DNA of 64,000 nt from an uncultured Clostridia bacterium (GTDB lineage Bacteria > Bacillota > Clostridia > Saccharofermentanales > Saccharofermentanaceae): contig CAMNGC010000004.1 in assembly GCA_946537885.1 (NCBI GenBank), forward strand, positions 1 through 64,000, given 5' to 3'. Made by a program: the position numbers and the translations under genes. Each line of letters begins with the position of its first letter. The stretch's first letter is position 1. Shown here one piece after another: positions 1,151-6,935 of the stretch. The notes beneath the pieces are model-generated. The model worked only from the letters and a program-made list of their open reading frames with translations. It had not been told where the DNA came from and did not search any database.

Positions 1151-1656
1151 TGGATCACTCCTTTTCCTCGCTCTACTAACACTTTACCATGTTGCAAAGG
1201 AAAAGTCCCGTCAACTCAGGATCCAGGGATAAACTAAGTCTCCCCGATCAAATCAACAAGGCACGAAGAGGGTTTCCAAACGTTATTTGCTTCTCGGATG
1301 AAATGATCTTGTTCTTCCTGTATCTGAAGTTCTGACAGCTTCTTAGTGTAATCAAGAAAGGCATTAAACCATCTGGGGGTCGGCTCTTTTCTTGTGTAAC
1401 ACACATTCGTCCAATCCAAATATCATTTCCAACATAATAAAGAAAACCATGTGAGAAAGGGCCTATTTAAGTCCCTGAAAGGAGCATCCGAATGAACAGA
1501 GTAATCCCGTACCTATGCGTATAGCCATAGCCTCGGATGATCACAAAAGTCGCTTTCGCGACTTATTATTCAAAATAAACAAAGAGACGATGATCTGCTA
1601 ATGCAGATCATCCGAGGCAAGCACTAGCAACCATTGGCTCGTAGAAGGAGTCAAAA
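1151..1656. other. 506-base intergenic region, probable left side of the integrative element
   Basis: No gene is supported here. A 61-codon minus-strand frame at 1234-1419 starts with TTG, has no proper ribosome site and matches nothing I know. The right part (1530-1618) holds a strong two-way RNA structure, listed separately. I looked for a copy of the tRNA-Arg 3' end that would mark the left attachment site and saw none. Confidence 0.5.
1530..1618 (+). ncRNA. Candidate structured leader or small RNA with two mutually exclusive stems
   Basis: GCCTCGGATGATC (1530-1542) is exactly complementary to GATCATCCGAGGC (1606-1618), giving a closing stem of 13 bp. Inside it lies a perfect hairpin, AAGTCGC/GCGACTT (1547-1553 and 1558-1564). 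A second perfect hairpin, GATGATCTGC/GCAGATCATC (589-598 and 603-612, add 1000), uses part of the same 3' arm, so the long stem and this hairpin cannot form together. It lies 39 bases before the XRE gene. It could be an attenuator, a small RNA or a DNA-level site such as an origin. Confidence 0.5.
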
Positions 1657-2067
1657 ATGACTAAAGATGAAATTCTATCTGAAGGAAGAATCTACTGCTC
1701 GCTAACGAATGATCTTACCCAATCCTGGAAGATGGTTCTTGACTGGAGGCACATCTCACAGGCTTCACTGTCGAGACGCATCGGAATCAGCGAGAGGACG
1801 ATCAGTCTAATCGTTCAAGGGAAACGTAAAGGAGAAGTGGAAACAATAGTCTTGATGTGCTTGGGTGCGAATTTGCCGTACTTGATTAGTTCCCACATCA
1901 TGTCGCTCTCCGGTATTAATCTCGTGCCTAGCAGAGAGGATCACTGTATCTTTCTTCATCTACTTCAGACGCATTACAAGGACTCAATACCCTCAATTCG
2001 AGATTATTTACTTGAAATTGGATCGGATTTATACATGATTTTTCCTGTGAAAGACGAAATGCATTGA
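1657..2067 (+). CDS. XRE-type helix-turn-helix regulator of the element
   Basis: This is a probable DNA-binding repressor or copy-control protein. Residues about 28-60 form a helix-turn-helix of the XRE/Cro type: the segment SQASLSRRIGISERTISLIV has the usual small-residue turn and recognition helix. The C-terminal half (about 60-136) does not match a family I recognise and may serve dimerisation. The ATG has a good ribosome site (GAAGGAG). The gene is first in the element, and a perfect palindrome overlaps its stop codon (2062-2082), which could be its operator. Regulation of the downstream replication genes is inferred from this layout. Confidence 0.75.
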   Translation: MTKDEILSEGRIYCSLTNDLTQSWKMVLDWRHISQASLSRRIGISERTISLIVQGKRKGEVETIVLMCLGANLPYLISSHIMSLSGINLVPSREDHCIFLHLLQTHYKDSIPSIRDYLLEIGSDLYMIFPVKDEMH

Positions 2068-2165
2068 ACTTTAAGTTCAATGGTAACAGACCCTTAAACT
2101 TCAAGGTAAATCGTAGTTTCTCCGAATACTGAACCCTAAAAAAGCCCAAAATCATTGAACCCTAA
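2062..2165. promoter_or_regulatory. Palindrome and repeated boxes ahead of the replication genes
   Basis: The palindrome has arms CATTGAACTT (2062-2071) and AAGTTCAATG (2073-2082) around one base, and it covers the stop codon of the XRE gene. An imperfect palindrome CCTTAAACTTCAAGG follows at 2092-2106. The decamer TGAACCCTAA then occurs twice as a direct repeat (2130-2139 and 2156-2165), 26 bases apart. Related TTGAAC-like boxes on both strands in 104 bases suggest operator sites for the element's regulator or origin iterons. No convincing -35/-10 pair was identified. Confidence 0.5.
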
Positions 2166-2233: not shown

Positions 2234-3154
2234 ATGAACATCAATATCATTAAAGGTCGGATCGAATGCGCCAAGAAGGTCGTGATCTATGGTCCCGAGG
2301 GTATCGGCAAGAGCACTATGGCCAGCCAGTTCCCTCAGCCGGTCTTCATCGACTGCGAAGGTTCAACCAAAGAGCTCGATGTAGCCAGGTATCCACCCCC
2401 CAGATCCTTTGAAGACATTCTAGCCTTCATGGACGATGCGGTGACGAACCATACGTGTAAGACGCTTATCATCGACACTGCCGATTGGGCCGAGCATCTA
2501 TGTACGCGATACACCTGCAGACGTCTCAACGTTAAAGGCATCGAAGATCTCGGCTATGGCAAAGGATACACCTATCAGTCTGAGGACTTCCAGCTGCTGT
2601 TAAGCAAGGCCGATATGCTGATCGAGCACGGTATCAACGTCGTGTTCATCGCGCACGCGGTAATGCGAAAGTTCGAACAGCCCGATGAGATGGGTGCCTA
2701 CGATCGTTGGGAGCTGAAGCTCGCCAAGAGGATAGCACCTCTGCTGAAGGAATGGGCGGATATGGTTCTCTTCGTTAACTACAAGACTGCTGTAATTACT
2801 GATACCAAAACGAACAGCAAGAAGGCCACCGGCGGCACCCGTGTCATGTATACGACTCACCATCCCTGTTGGGATGCCAAGAATCGTTTTGAGCTCGCTG
2901 AAGAGCTTCCTGCGTCATATGACAGCATTCGCCACATCTTTGAAGCTTCATCTAGTACGAATGCCTCTATCAACAGGCTTCGGGAGATGATGGCTGAGGC
3001 TGATATCAGCGAAGAACAGTTGAAGCACCTCGTAGCGTCCAAGGGGCACTATCCTGAGACTACAGCTATAGACGAGTATTCTGCAGACTTCATTGAAAGC
3101 TGGGCGATCAAGCACTTCAGTCAAATCGTAAAAACTATAAAGGAGGACATTTAA
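2234..3154 (+). CDS. Phage-type RecA-like P-loop ATPase (PF13479, Sak4-like)
   Basis: The protein matches the phage nucleotide-binding AAA family that includes Sak4-type single-strand annealing proteins. Walker A is GPEGIGKST at residues 20-28, and Walker B is the hydrophobic strand KTLIID ending at Asp81. A following HAVMRK segment fits the sensor region of this fold. The family is found in phages and mobile elements next to single-strand binding proteins, and that is the case here, with the SSB-like gene starting directly after its stop codon. The likely role is recombination or annealing during replication of the element. The start is secured by AAAGGAGG before the ATG. Confidence 0.8.
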   Translation: MNINIIKGRIECAKKVVIYGPEGIGKSTMASQFPQPVFIDCEGSTKELDVARYPPPRSFEDILAFMDDAVTNHTCKTLIIDTADWAEHLCTRYTCRRLNVKGIEDLGYGKGYTYQSEDFQLLLSKADMLIEHGINVVFIAHAVMRKFEQPDEMGAYDRWELKLAKRIAPLLKEWADMVLFVNYKTAVITDTKTNSKKATGGTRVMYTTHHPCWDAKNRFELAEELPASYDSIRHIFEASSSTNASINRLREMMAEADISEEQLKHLVASKGHYPETTAIDEYSADFIESWAIKHFSQIVKTIKEDI

Positions 3155-3601
3155 ATGAACACAGATTCAAACATCGGTTGGAACGATACCATTAGGCTCG
3201 CCTCGAACGCGAGCAATAAGAACTTCTCTCTTCTCGAAGATGGAGAATACGACTTCACTGTCGTAAACGTAGAGAAGACAATCTTCGAAGGAAACTCCAA
3301 GGTGCCGAGATGCAACAAGGCTGTAGTGACCCTGGCAATCGGCAACACTAACATCAAGACTGATTTCTTGCTCCTTCAGGGAAGCGAGTTCAGGATCTCT
3401 TCTTTCTATCGCTCTATCGGGAGAGCTGCGAGCAACGATGAGGTCGTGATGGATTGGGACCATATAGTAGGTGCCAGAGGTAGGGCCTATATCTCCACAA
3501 AGAGTTTCACAGGTAGAGATGGTCGCGAACGTGAGATCAACGTGGTAAAGAAGTTCCTCTTCTCTGAGGTTGAGGATACTAATAGCTTCGACGAGTTTTG
3601 A
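3155..3601 (+). CDS. Phage-type single-strand DNA-binding-like protein (DUF669-like)
   Basis: This protein of 148 residues is predicted to be mostly beta-stranded. Its start (NTDSNIGWNDTIRLASNAS) and overall pattern resemble the phage DUF669 proteins that accompany Sak4-type ATPases. The C-terminus is acidic and ends in an aromatic residue (DTNSFDEF), like the acidic tip through which SSB proteins bind partner enzymes. The gene begins immediately after the ATPase stop, with GGAGG inside the end of the upstream gene, so the two are translationally linked. An SSB role is inferred from the tip and the neighbours; the family assignment is moderate. Confidence 0.65.
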   Translation: MNTDSNIGWNDTIRLASNASNKNFSLLEDGEYDFTVVNVEKTIFEGNSKVPRCNKAVVTLAIGNTNIKTDFLLLQGSEFRISSFYRSIGRAASNDEVVMDWDHIVGARGRAYISTKSFTGRDGREREINVVKKFLFSEVEDTNSFDEF

Positions 3602-3605
3602 CCCC

Positions 3606-3634
3606 GAGAGGGGGTATCTTCGGTACCCCCTCTC
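3606..3634 (+). other. Perfect 11-bp stem-loop between SSB-like and helicase genes
   Basis: GAGAGGGGGTA (3606-3616) pairs exactly with TACCCCCTCTC (3624-3634). The seven-base loop contains CTTCGG, so a stable UUCG-type cap is possible. No U-tract follows, so it is not an ordinary terminator. It lies just after the stop of the SSB-like gene and 21 bases before the helicase start. Roles in mRNA processing or 3'-end protection are possible. Confidence 0.6.
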
Positions 3635-3654
3635 TATCCCCAAAAGGAGGAATT

Positions 3655-4674
3655 ATGTATTTTCAGCAGCATACTACTAATCTCCCTGAGCCCTTCGCTC
3701 TTGGAGAATATGAAGGGAACATCCCCGAGCCGTCTCCATGTTTAATTGACGGCATATTGCGCAAAGGCCACAAACTCTTGATCGCAGGCCCGTCAAAGGC
3801 AGGTAAGACCTGGCTTCTCATATATCTTTGCATTGCTATCGCTGAGTCGCTCCTCTTCTTCGGGCATCAGTGTGCCAAGGGTAAGGTTCTGTACGTCAAT
3901 CTGGAGATCGACAAGAATTCAATCGTTCGTCGCTTTTTTGATGTTTATGAGGAGCTTAATCTAGCATCAAAAAGTCTAAGTAACATCATCGTCTGGAACC
4001 TTCGCGGATGTACCTTAACCCTCGACGAACTCGCACCTTTGATCATCTCCGCAACAAAGGATCAGGGCTTCAGCGCTATCGTCATCGATCCCATCTACAA
4101 GATTTCAACCGGAGATGAAAATAGTGCAACCGAGATAGGGCGCTTTTGCAATCTGTTTGATCGCATCGCTACCGAGACGGGCTGCTCCGTGATCTATTCC
4201 CACCATCACAGCAAAGGCGCGCAAGGGAACAAGAAAGCGATGGACCGCTCTTCAGGTTCCGGAGTCTTTGCTCGCGATCCGGACGCCGTACTCGATCTCA
4301 GTGAGCTCGAAGTCAAGCGCGAGGTCCTCGAGAAGCTTGGTGCTAGCAGTGCGTGGAGGATTGAGGGAGTACTCCGTGAGTTCCCTCCTTTCGATCCAAT
4401 CAACTGCTTTTTCAAATATCCCATCCACATTCTTGATACGGACGGCGATTTGGACTGTGCGAGGATCTTTGACGGAGCCAAATCCAAAGAGATGGTGCGC
4501 GATGAGCACAACAAAGCTCTCGAGAGAGCATACAGTCGGCACACCAACGGCGATTCTGCTCCCTTGCGGGAGGTTGCAAAGGAGTTGTGCATCACTGAAA
4601 GAACAGCACGTGAATGGGTCAAGGATTCAGGGGAATTCTACGTGCGCAGCAGTACTGTTCATAGGAATAGTTAA
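3655..4674 (+). CDS. RepA-like hexameric helicase/ATPase with C-terminal HTH
   Basis: The start is the ATG at 3655, which has AAAAGGAGG before it, giving 339 residues. The ATPase core is of the AAA_25/RepA type. Walker A is GPSKAGKT (45-52), Walker B is AIVIDP with Asp145, and the YSHHHSKG segment (181-188) is the conserved sensor region of RepA/DnaB-like ATPases. After a linker, residues about 302-324 (LREVAKELCITERTAREWV) form a helix-turn-helix, which could bind an origin. In plasmids and satellites such proteins unwind the origin, so this is the best candidate replication initiator of the element. The fusion of ATPase and HTH in one chain supports self-loading at a specific site, which is inference. 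Confidence 0.75.
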   Translation: MYFQQHTTNLPEPFALGEYEGNIPEPSPCLIDGILRKGHKLLIAGPSKAGKTWLLIYLCIAIAESLLFFGHQCAKGKVLYVNLEIDKNSIVRRFFDVYEELNLASKSLSNIIVWNLRGCTLTLDELAPLIISATKDQGFSAIVIDPIYKISTGDENSATEIGRFCNLFDRIATETGCSVIYSHHHSKGAQGNKKAMDRSSGSGVFARDPDAVLDLSELEVKREVLEKLGASSAWRIEGVLREFPPFDPINCFFKYPIHILDTDGDLDCARIFDGAKSKEMVRDEHNKALERAYSRHTNGDSAPLREVAKELCITERTAREWVKDSGEFYVRSSTVHRNS

Positions 4675-4700
4675 TTCTTTTTCTCTTAGCGTGGATGTTA

Positions 4701-4740
4701 GGTTAGTTGAGGAAGTGTCTTATACACTTCCTCAACCACC
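4701..4740 (+). other. Perfect 12-bp stem-loop before rusA
   Basis: TTGAGGAAGTGT (4707-4718) pairs exactly with ACACTTCCTCAA (4724-4735) around a five-base loop. GGT and ACC extend the outer stem across a small internal loop (4701-4740). No U-run follows, and the next gene begins 54 bases later. It resembles the hairpin at 3606-3634 in placement and lack of terminator features. Confidence 0.6.
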
Positions 4741-4793
4741 ATCCGTATCCCAACAACAAAAAACGATTCTAAAGAAAAGAAAGGCATTAAGAT

Positions 4794-5210
4794 ATGAATA
4801 AACTTCACATAAATCTTAACATCGATCCACCTACCGTGACCGCCCAGCAGAAGAAGATTCGAATCGTCAACGGCAGACCCATATTCTATTATCCGAACGA
4901 TGTTAAGCGTGCAAAGCAGCTTCTTTATGCCAACCTGCTGATTCGGCGGCCCCAAGAGCCCTTCGAATGCCCTGTCGAGTTGCGGACCATCTGGCGCTTC
5001 CGCCCGGGAAAGACCCATAAAAACAACGAATGGCGGTCAACCAAGCCCGACACGGATAATCTTCAGAAACTTCTCAAGGACTGTATGACGGATACCGGCT
5101 ACTGGAAAGATGATGCCCTCGTGGTTAAAGAAACCGTCGAAAAGTACTGGTCCGATACCCCCGGTATCGAGATTGAGATCACTGCACTTATGCATTTAAG
5201 GGAGGATTAA
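4794..5210 (+). CDS. RusA-like Holliday-junction endonuclease
   Basis: The protein of 138 residues matches the RusA family of phage-borne Holliday-junction resolvases in length and motifs. The acidic metal-binding residues are visible as KPDTDN (Asp86, Asp88) and WKDDALV (Asp106-Asp107), with the basic stretch KTHKNNEWRSTKP before them. RusA resolves branched intermediates from phage-type recombination, which agrees with the ATPase and SSB-like genes upstream. The ATG follows the A-rich, weak ribosome site AAAGAAAAGAAAGG. The next gene starts only two bases after its stop codon. Confidence 0.8.
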   Translation: MNKLHINLNIDPPTVTAQQKKIRIVNGRPIFYYPNDVKRAKQLLYANLLIRRPQEPFECPVELRTIWRFRPGKTHKNNEWRSTKPDTDNLQKLLKDCMTDTGYWKDDALVVKETVEKYWSDTPGIEIEITALMHLRED

Positions 5211-5212
5211 TC

Positions 5213-5458
5213 ATGAACTACGAGATATGTATATCTAATGACTACAGAAACACATATATTGATTTCGCGGATCGAGATGCTGAGGAAGTTCACATGGTAC
5301 TCATGAATGAGAGTGGTTATGTATTTTTTGCAAGGATTTTTGCCGATGATCCGTATGCCGCGGCCGATAAAGCCAGAGAATACTTCAAGGAGCAGGTCGG
5401 ATTCGATGAGGAGTGGTCCATGATCATAGATATGGAATTAAGATGCCTCCTGCCCTGA
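5213..5458 (+). CDS. Small acidic protein of unknown function
   Basis: I do not recognise this 81-residue protein. It is acidic, begins with a probable beta-strand (MNYEICISND), and has the pattern YVFFARIFADDPYAAADKAREYFKEQ, which suggests a small alpha/beta fold. It starts two bases after rusA, with GGGAGGA as ribosome site, so it belongs to the same transcript. A DNA-binding mimic, an anti-host factor or an integrase accessory protein are all possible. Nothing in the sequence decides between them. Confidence 0.6.
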   Translation: MNYEICISNDYRNTYIDFADRDAEEVHMVLMNESGYVFFARIFADDPYAAADKAREYFKEQVGFDEEWSMIIDMELRCLLP

Positions 5459-5534: not shown

Positions 5535-6764
5535 GTGTCAGGTTCATCTTTAACGGCCGAGAATATGATGCTATCATATATCTGCACCCCTGAAAGTGCA
5601 TCGTGGTTAGATATAGCTATGATTCGCAAGATCAAACAGGATTATGTGGATTCGAGACACACCCACGCTATCACTAGGCTCAATTCAACGAACAAATACA
5701 GGGATGGGCACTATCGAACCCACATATACGTAAATGGAAAACGAAAGAAGGTGGAACGGTCAACCAAAGAAGAGCTCTATGATTTCTTATTTGAATTTTA
5801 TCAGAAGCCTAAGACATATGACGATGTCTTCAAGGAATTAGTCGAGTATAAAAGAGAGTGCGCTCTGTCGCCAAATTCGATTAACGATCTGCTGAGGTAT
5901 CACGGATACTTCAGTTCAAATCTTAGGTCCAAACCCATAACTCACTTGACTGAAGACGACATCAGAAATTGGTTGATAAAAGAATACCTTCTTAGAAGGC
6001 CCAAGAAAGAGGCTCTTAAGAAGATGCTTCAGTTGATTCGATCAGTCTTTGAATTTGGAATTCGACACAAATATTGTCTCGATAATCCAGCACGGTACAT
6101 TCTCCTTGAAGAATACTCAAAGGCTTGTGACGTTAACACCAAAAGCAACGAGGATCACTCATTCTCGGAAGATGACATTCAACGACTGAGAGAGTATTGT
6201 CGCGAGCACCTTGGCAACCCGCATTCTGTCGTTATGCTAGTCGCCATGGAGACAGGAATGCGCGCCGGAGAGCTGGCCGCCCTCCATAAAAGTGACGTTG
6301 GTCAGGATCACATCCACATTCATCGTCAACAAATAAGGAATCCTAAGGAAGATCCTGACAGCAAATCCTCGTTTACGGAGGTCTGCTACACCAAAAACGA
6401 ACGTAAAAACCCCAAAGGTGGTCGTTATTTTCCGATCACACCTAGATGCAGAGAAGCTATAGATCTTGCATTGGCACTGCCGGGAGAATCTGAATATCTG
6501 TTTCACCACCCGAATGGGAATCCGATCCAGAAAGACTCTTATGGCTACTATTTGAGACGGGTCTGCGGTCGTTTGAACATTTCTGTCAAACATAACCACG
6601 CATTTAGGGTTCATGTGAACGCCAGATTAATAGCCGCAGGAATCGATGCTAACGGCAGATGTCTTCTATTGGGACACTCGATGCAGACGAACGAGAGGCA
6701 CTACTCATTTGCCGACTCAAGGAAGCTTGATGAGATTAAGGCCATACTCTCTGATGCTTCTTAA
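5535..6764 (+). CDS. int: Tyrosine recombinase integrase
   Basis: This is a phage-type integrase of 409 residues that would integrate and excise the element at tRNA-Arg. The start is GTG at 5535, with AAAGGAG nine bases upstream. An N-terminal arm-binding part (about 45-90) is followed by a SAM-like core-binding domain (about 92-190). The catalytic domain has Arg243 in TGMRAGEL, His355 and Arg358 in HAFR, His381 in LGHS and the nucleophile Tyr390 in ERHY. All five are intact, so the enzyme looks active. No excisionase gene is obvious. The gene ends close to the 3' end of the tRNA, the usual arrangement for tRNA-specific integrases. Confidence 0.92.
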   Translation: MSGSSLTAENMMLSYICTPESASWLDIAMIRKIKQDYVDSRHTHAITRLNSTNKYRDGHYRTHIYVNGKRKKVERSTKEELYDFLFEFYQKPKTYDDVFKELVEYKRECALSPNSINDLLRYHGYFSSNLRSKPITHLTEDDIRNWLIKEYLLRRPKKEALKKMLQLIRSVFEFGIRHKYCLDNPARYILLEEYSKACDVNTKSNEDHSFSEDDIQRLREYCREHLGNPHSVVMLVAMETGMRAGELAALHKSDVGQDHIHIHRQQIRNPKEDPDSKSSFTEVCYTKNERKNPKGGRYFPITPRCREAIDLALALPGESEYLFHHPNGNPIQKDSYGYYLRRVCGRLNISVKHNHAFRVHVNARLIAAGIDANGRCLLLGHSMQTNERHYSFADSRKLDEIKAILSDAS

Positions 6765-6787
6765 CACTTAGCGGGGGCAGTAAGGGT

Positions 6788-6807
6788 TTGCACCCACTTG
6801 CACCCAC
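6788..6807. repeat. Tandem decamer TTGCACCCAC x2
   Basis: The decamer occurs twice head to tail with no gap, between the integrase stop and the tRNA terminator. Position and repetition suggest arm-type binding sites for the integrase. Confidence 0.5.
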
Positions 6808-6856: not shown

Positions 6857-6861
6857 ACTGG

Positions 6862-6935
6862 TGTTCGCGAGCGGATTCGAACCGCTGGCCTACCGCTTAG
6901 GAGGCGGTCGCTCTATCCTGCTGAGCTACGCAAAC
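6862..6935 (-). tRNA. tRNA-Arg (anticodon CCT)
   Basis: The minus strand folds as a cloverleaf. The acceptor stem is GTTTGCG with CGCGAAC (one G-U pair), and the T-arm contains GGTTCGAATCC. The anticodon loop reads CTCCTAA, giving CCT (arginine, AGG). CCA is encoded at 6859-6861. It is the apparent integration target of the neighbouring element. Confidence 0.93.

Follow-up and report, generated by a model that had tools for sequence, protein, structure and literature searches.

In the leader-peptide attenuators of Escherichia coli trp, Bacillus subtilis bmrBCD (PMC4191407), ermC and cat-86, a short ORF led by a Shine-Dalgarno (SD) sequence lies beside alternative stems, and the same arrangement is found at the locus described here. 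In the immunity system of satellite phage P4, the CI RNA pairs with seqA and seqC, located on either side (PMC4825925).

The locus lies in the window, the whole 64-kb stretch of DNA that was analysed, which is the start of a contig from a gut-type bacterium in the group of Saccharofermentans. A small integrated element lies between positions 1657 and 6764, and its genes include one for an HTH regulator. The non-coding DNA ahead of this gene contains a strong fold, which is most likely an RNA leader of a known kind. The features of the locus are collected in Table 1.

Table 1. Positions of the leader segments and of the genes of the element in the window
Feature	Position	Strand	Basis or remark
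Shine-Dalgarno AAAGGAG of the putative leader ORF	1478..1484	+	with ATG 5-9 nt downstream in 0.66% of shuffles (computed after the pattern was seen)
Segment 1, GAGCATCCGA, in the ribosome-binding site of the putative leader ORF; can pair with segment 2	1482..1491	+	
Putative leader peptide ORF, MNRVIPYLCV-stop	1492..1524	+	sequence reading, architecture scan
Segment 2, 5′ arm of the 13-bp outer stem, GCCTCGGATGATC	1530..1542	+	read in sequence
Middle hairpin, 7 bp, loop TTTC	1547..1564	+	sequence, RNA folding
Segment 3, 5′ arm of the 10-bp hairpin, GATGATCTGC	1589..1598	+	read in sequence
Segment 4, 16-nt 3′ arm, GCAGATCATCCGAGGC	1603..1618	+	read in sequence
HTH ribosome-binding region, Shine-Dalgarno AAGGAG at 1645-1650	1634..1656	+	
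HTH (Cro/C1-type) regulator, 136 aa	1657..2067	+	Pfam HTH_26, 22.1 bits (cut-off 22)
Probable HTH operator, CATTGAACTTTAAGTTCAATG, perfect palindrome	2062..2082	+	inference
Replication/recombination operon: Sak4-like annealing protein, phrog_2698 protein, RepA/DnaB-like helicase, RusA resolvase, 81-aa protein	2234..5458	+	
Tyrosine integrase	5535..6764	+	beside tRNA-Arg(CCT), 6859-6935 (-)

Competing stems ahead of the HTH gene

The three perfect stems described in the earlier note are all exact. The outer stem pairs segment 2 with GATCATCCGAGGC (1606-1618) over 13 bp, the 10-bp hairpin pairs segment 3 with GCAGATCATC (1603-1612), and the middle hairpin pairs AAGTCGC (1547-1553) with GCGACTT (1558-1564). 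The 3′ arm, segment 4, is shared by the two longer stems, with its first 10 nt complementary to segment 3 and its last 13 nt to segment 2. The folding energy of the RNA from 1520 to 1628 is -37.8 kcal/mol, compared to -18.4 ± 3.3 kcal/mol in shuffles (z = -5.96). The minus strand and the single-stranded DNA also fold strongly, with z scores of -5.0 and -5.3, respectively, and as a result the strand is not chosen by fold strength. The window contains other long perfect stems, namely seven hairpins with arms of at least 10 and loops of at most 12, and six stems of at least 12 bp with loops of at most 80. Overlapping stems of 13 and 10 bp are found only once in the window, and 12 dinucleotide shuffles yielded no such pair, in agreement with the earlier view that chance is an unlikely origin. 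The fold is real and non-random.

The two long stems had been described as mutually exclusive. This is true for 7 bp, where GATGATC at 1536-1542 and GATGATC at 1589-1595 contend for GATCATC at 1606-1612, but the outer 6 bp of the long stem (GCCTCG with CGAGGC) coexist with the 10-bp hairpin. The alternatives are the 13-bp stem, or a three-way junction with stems of 6 and 10 bp, and the corresponding forced folds are nearly equal in the model (-64.0 versus -63.7 kcal/mol). As only 7 bp are contested and the energies are so close, the structure is better described as a branch-migration switch than as two fully exclusive states. A gap of 0.3 kcal/mol in a folding model is expected of a switch, and also of an accident. 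A fourth segment, GAGCATCCGA at 1482-1491 (segment 1), pairs at 9 of 10 positions with TCGGATGATC at 1533-1542, providing a third competing pairing. Segment 2 can therefore be paired with segment 1, in the ribosome site of the putative leader ORF, or with segment 4, while segment 4 can be paired with segment 2 or segment 3.

A putative leader ORF and its predicted effect on the fold

The putative leader ORF consists of AAAGGAG, a spacer of 7 nt, an ATG and 10 codons, and its stop codon ends 5 nt before the 13-bp stem. A strong SD combined with an ATG at this distance arises in the tabulated fraction of shuffles of 1198-1640. The spacer and part of the leader SD are covered by segment 1, which matches the 3′ arm at 9 of 10 positions. 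Such a match is reached in 0.06% of shuffles for the 10-mer of segment 1 and in 1.1% when every 10-mer of the 3′ arm is allowed, frequencies that were likewise computed after the pattern had been seen. In 4.3 Mb of strand-specific sequence taken from related loci, only eight other short SD-led ORFs end beside a stem of at least 10 bp, and none of the eight combines a 13-bp stem with a loop of at least 40 nt. No recognised stalling motif was found in the putative peptide MNRVIPYLCV when read by eye.

The putative ORF would thus supply one feature of ribosome-mediated attenuators of the trp and bmrB type, a ribosome-binding site and a reading frame adjoining alternative stems. Among the functions suggested in the earlier note, an attenuator-like leader RNA upstream of the HTH gene has the best support, because of this putative ORF and the third competing arm. 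The part of the suggestion that falls is the attenuator with an intrinsic terminator: no U tract follows any of the plus-strand hairpins, and no terminator-like site is present on the plus strand between 1180 and 2300.

We tentatively propose that the region is a cis-acting, translation-sensitive 5′ leader RNA that sets the expression of the HTH regulator. If the leader ORF is idle, segment 2 would pair with segment 1 early in transcription, hiding the leader ORF's own ribosome site. Alternatively, it would pair with segment 4, with the 13-bp stem extended up to the HTH SD; the extension is provided by UUGGCUCGUAG (1634-1644), which pairs with the last part of the leader ORF. A ribosome finishing the leader ORF would cover the first bases of segment 2 and break the long stem. 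Segments 3 and 4 would then close, and the bases directly before the HTH start would be released. The level of the HTH protein would in turn control the replication operon through the palindromes located between the HTH gene and the operon. What the sequence and the folding model show are the arms, the leader frame with its strong SD, the rival pairings and the predicted shift described below; we infer that the RNA is made and the peptide translated, and likewise the signal and the direction and size of the effect.

The predicted shift is seen in an ensemble model in which a ribosome at the leader stop was represented by masking. With the mask extending from 1505 to 1532-1540, a 2:4 pairing probability of 0.77 gives way to a 3:4 pairing probability of 1.0, and the HTH SD becomes more accessible, its mean unpaired probability being 0.27 before masking and about 0.55-0.6 after it. 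The extended pairing that reaches 1644, beside the HTH SD, is removed by these masks, while with the mask edge at 1528 the long stem persists. The HTH SD is fully open with a probability of at most about 0.001 in all modelled states, and the start-codon hairpin of the HTH gene persists in the model after masking of the leader stop. Since the SD changes only modestly and this hairpin stays closed, the model hints no more than weakly that leader translation promotes HTH expression.

No convincing promoter was found upstream of the leader ORF in a consensus scan. The sole promoter-like match near the leader on the plus strand is at 1540-1569, inside the structure, and if this promoter is real its transcript would not contain segments 1 and 2.

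A more elaborate version of the proposal seems to us quite improbable. Here the element would couple its master regulator to host translation by way of the leader peptide and a near-isoenergetic three-way switch, with host stress or growth deciding replication, and one arm would also cover the leader's own ribosome site.

Alternative readings of the structure

The alternative that survives best, which we consider somewhat unlikely, places the function in the DNA. The repeats of TCGGATGATC would be protein-binding sites (an operator, or origin iterons), and the RNA stems would simply follow from inverted copies of the site. The 24-bp palindrome at 1589-1612 and the 18-bp palindrome at 1547-1564 would be operators around the promoter at 1540-1569. 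Copies of the motif are indeed present at 1294 (+, 8/10), 1482 (-, 9/10), 1533 (+), 1589 (+, 7 nt) and 1606 (-), and the 18-bp palindrome fills the spacer of the promoter-like sequence ATCACA-18-TATTAT (1540-1569). Such promoter-like sites are not in excess, however, with 2 observed versus 2.3 in shuffles. Repeated or inverted motifs also occur in the non-coding DNA before the rep gene of a related element (L155), and in another (L085) GTCCGAC runs precede the HTH gene. On the other hand, the TCGGATGATC-like copies in the window are irregularly spaced, and outside the GATGATC core that they share the arms are extended in a different way on either side, with segment 4 matching both of its partners. 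Each of the 16 nt of segment 4 has its complement in segment 2 or segment 3, a property that repeated binding sites for a protein would not require. The earlier suggestion of a replication origin keeps the repeated motif in its favor, and is weakened by the irregular spacing and by the fact that no dedicated initiator gene was recognised among the element genes, which do include a RepA-like helicase. A packaging origin finds no backing, as none of the genes of the element matched a capsid or terminase family at a convincing score.

The leader motif also differs from the motif that recurs around the HTH gene. Repeated sites downstream of this gene are the likelier HTH operators. A partial copy of the palindrome CATTGAACTTTAAGTTCAATG is located at 2153, about 91 bp on, and the related locus L086 has paired sites at a comparable place (13/14 repeats separated by 102 bp), with weaker ones in L085. 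The probable operator motif TTGAAC lies downstream of the HTH gene; it is absent from 1200-1660, and the leader was rejected as an HTH operator. Integrase arm sites were rejected as well, since the candidate arm repeats TTGCACCCAC, near 6785-6805, are unrelated to the leader motif.

An immunity RNA like that of P4 is unlikely. In this case a small RNA processed from the leader and carrying segment 2 would act in trans, and its pairing with segments 1 and 4 would block the replication operon at the level of transcription or translation. The layout is alike, with one segment complementary to sequences both upstream and downstream, ahead of replication genes, and the leader has a strong RNA fold. 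Against this, no Rfam match was obtained at E values up to 10, including C4 and other phage RNA families. The spacings in P4 immunity, moreover, are much longer than those in the leader of the window. The Rfam L19 leader was rejected (17 bits, compared to a cut-off of 36).

Searches for homologues of the leader returned nothing beyond the locus itself. A DNA search of 188 genomes of the order gave matches at chance level only (best E 0.015). A covariance model of the three-way form recovered only itself among 49 related loci, and its matches in the order (E 0.03-0.9) were chance matches, the five inspected being in or beside unrelated genes. The palindrome pattern was not found in the viral contigs of IMG/VR, and a distant blastn search against phages and plasmids gave no leader homologue. 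The structure is also absent from both close relatives of the HTH gene, one of which (L086/L169) has only about 95 bp upstream. As no other copy was found by DNA, pattern or covariance-model searches, the structure is a singleton. A MITE or palindromic repeat element was rejected, with one copy in the genome and none in the 188 genomes of the order.

Such a single copy, missing from relatives and located in a window that holds other long stems, is what would be expected if the structure had no function, its inverted repeats being accidental or in decay in non-coding DNA of a single genome. We nevertheless judge this improbable, slightly more so than the elaborate form of the leader model, since the overlapping stem pair is absent from the shuffles and coincides independently with the leader ORF and with segment 1.

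A copy-control RNA, as raised in the earlier note, or an antisense RNA, in either case from the minus strand, is very unlikely: the 10-bp hairpin is followed on that strand by a T-rich, terminator-like tail and the middle hairpin has a GAAA loop, but a consensus scan of the minus strand between 1180 and 2300 found no promoter-like site from which it could start, and the minus-strand fold is no more exceptional than that of the plus strand (z scores of -5.0 and -6.0).

The integrated element and comparison with known systems

A second copy of the tRNA end is absent from the window and from the rest of the assembly, and therefore the left end of the element is not seen. Upstream of the leader, a 26-nt inverted repeat (25/26 identical; 37-62 and 1376-1401) brackets a lipoprotein gene (214-1197), and its sequence does not occur elsewhere in the genome. 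Possible explanations are an invertible segment, a duplicated terminator tail, or an effect of the assembly close to where the contig starts.

Related integrases were found in 18 other genomes of the genus, with about 50-59% identity for the fuller matches. Where the surroundings were read, the same tRNA adjoins the integrase, and several of these loci have a second copy of the tRNA 3′ part, which marks the far end. Two of these elements encode a RepA-like helicase and a MobV-like relaxase, both recognised by eye. The tRNA-Arg(CCT) gene is a repeated integration site in the genus (for example, at G026:C72, G052:C41 and G064:C16). Several partial tRNA copies are arranged in tandem at such loci, and many contigs begin with one of them, as would result from excision or stacking of elements.

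Two relatives of the HTH regulator, at 52% identity, were found in the genus by a GTDB scan with the HTH alignment; the scan used short peptide patterns and reaches close relatives only, so that more distant ones may exist. In Ruminococcus phages, weaker relatives occur as the C-terminal domain of larger proteins, whose N-terminal part appears, by eye only, to be ImmA/IrrE-like.

The non-coding DNA of the related elements has repeats of its own. In L085, about eight direct repeats of the GTCCGAC type, with a spacing of roughly 11 bp, directly follow the stop codon of a gene and precede the HTH relative (2440-2520), and they look like iterons. A motif like CTCTCCCATTCCTTATAGGTGAAGG, partly inverted, is common to the non-coding DNA of L155 (5250-5800), L153 (10780-10840) and L151 (9550-9590); in L155 and L151 it precedes the RepA-like gene. 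These motifs are possible origin repeats, judging from their sequence and position.

Elements with related parts also carry a described structured RNA, the pemK RNA motif (RF02913), in their non-coding DNA. It is placed after the HTH gene, ahead of the gene that follows, in L085 (3410-3526), and before the rep gene in L155 (5859-5921) and L151 (8647-8766 and 9239-9357). No pemK RNA is present in the window, where the leader is unrelated to this motif in both sequence and fold.

The P4 immunity region (CI RNA, seqA/seqB/seqC) differs from the present leader in that there is no sequence or family match between the two, and the leader has short spacing and a leader ORF; a processed RNA is only hypothesised here. 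The likeness lies in a structured leader, with complementary segments on both sides, before the replication operon of a small integrated element.

The leader also differs in several respects from the leader-peptide attenuators. Unlike those of the trp and bmrB type, it has no intrinsic terminator. Compared to the ermC type, the controlled SD is only modestly affected in the model (mean unpaired probability of 0.27 becoming 0.55-0.6, full opening at most about 0.001). The controlled gene is the HTH regulator of a mobile element, and the leader, known from its sequence alone, has no homologues; at present it is one unreplicated case. If it works as proposed, it would show in compact form how a mobile element can set its own regulator by reading host translation, in rumen- and gut-type Clostridia, where such control has been little studied. 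As in the leader-peptide attenuators, the position of the ribosome is predicted to choose the stem.
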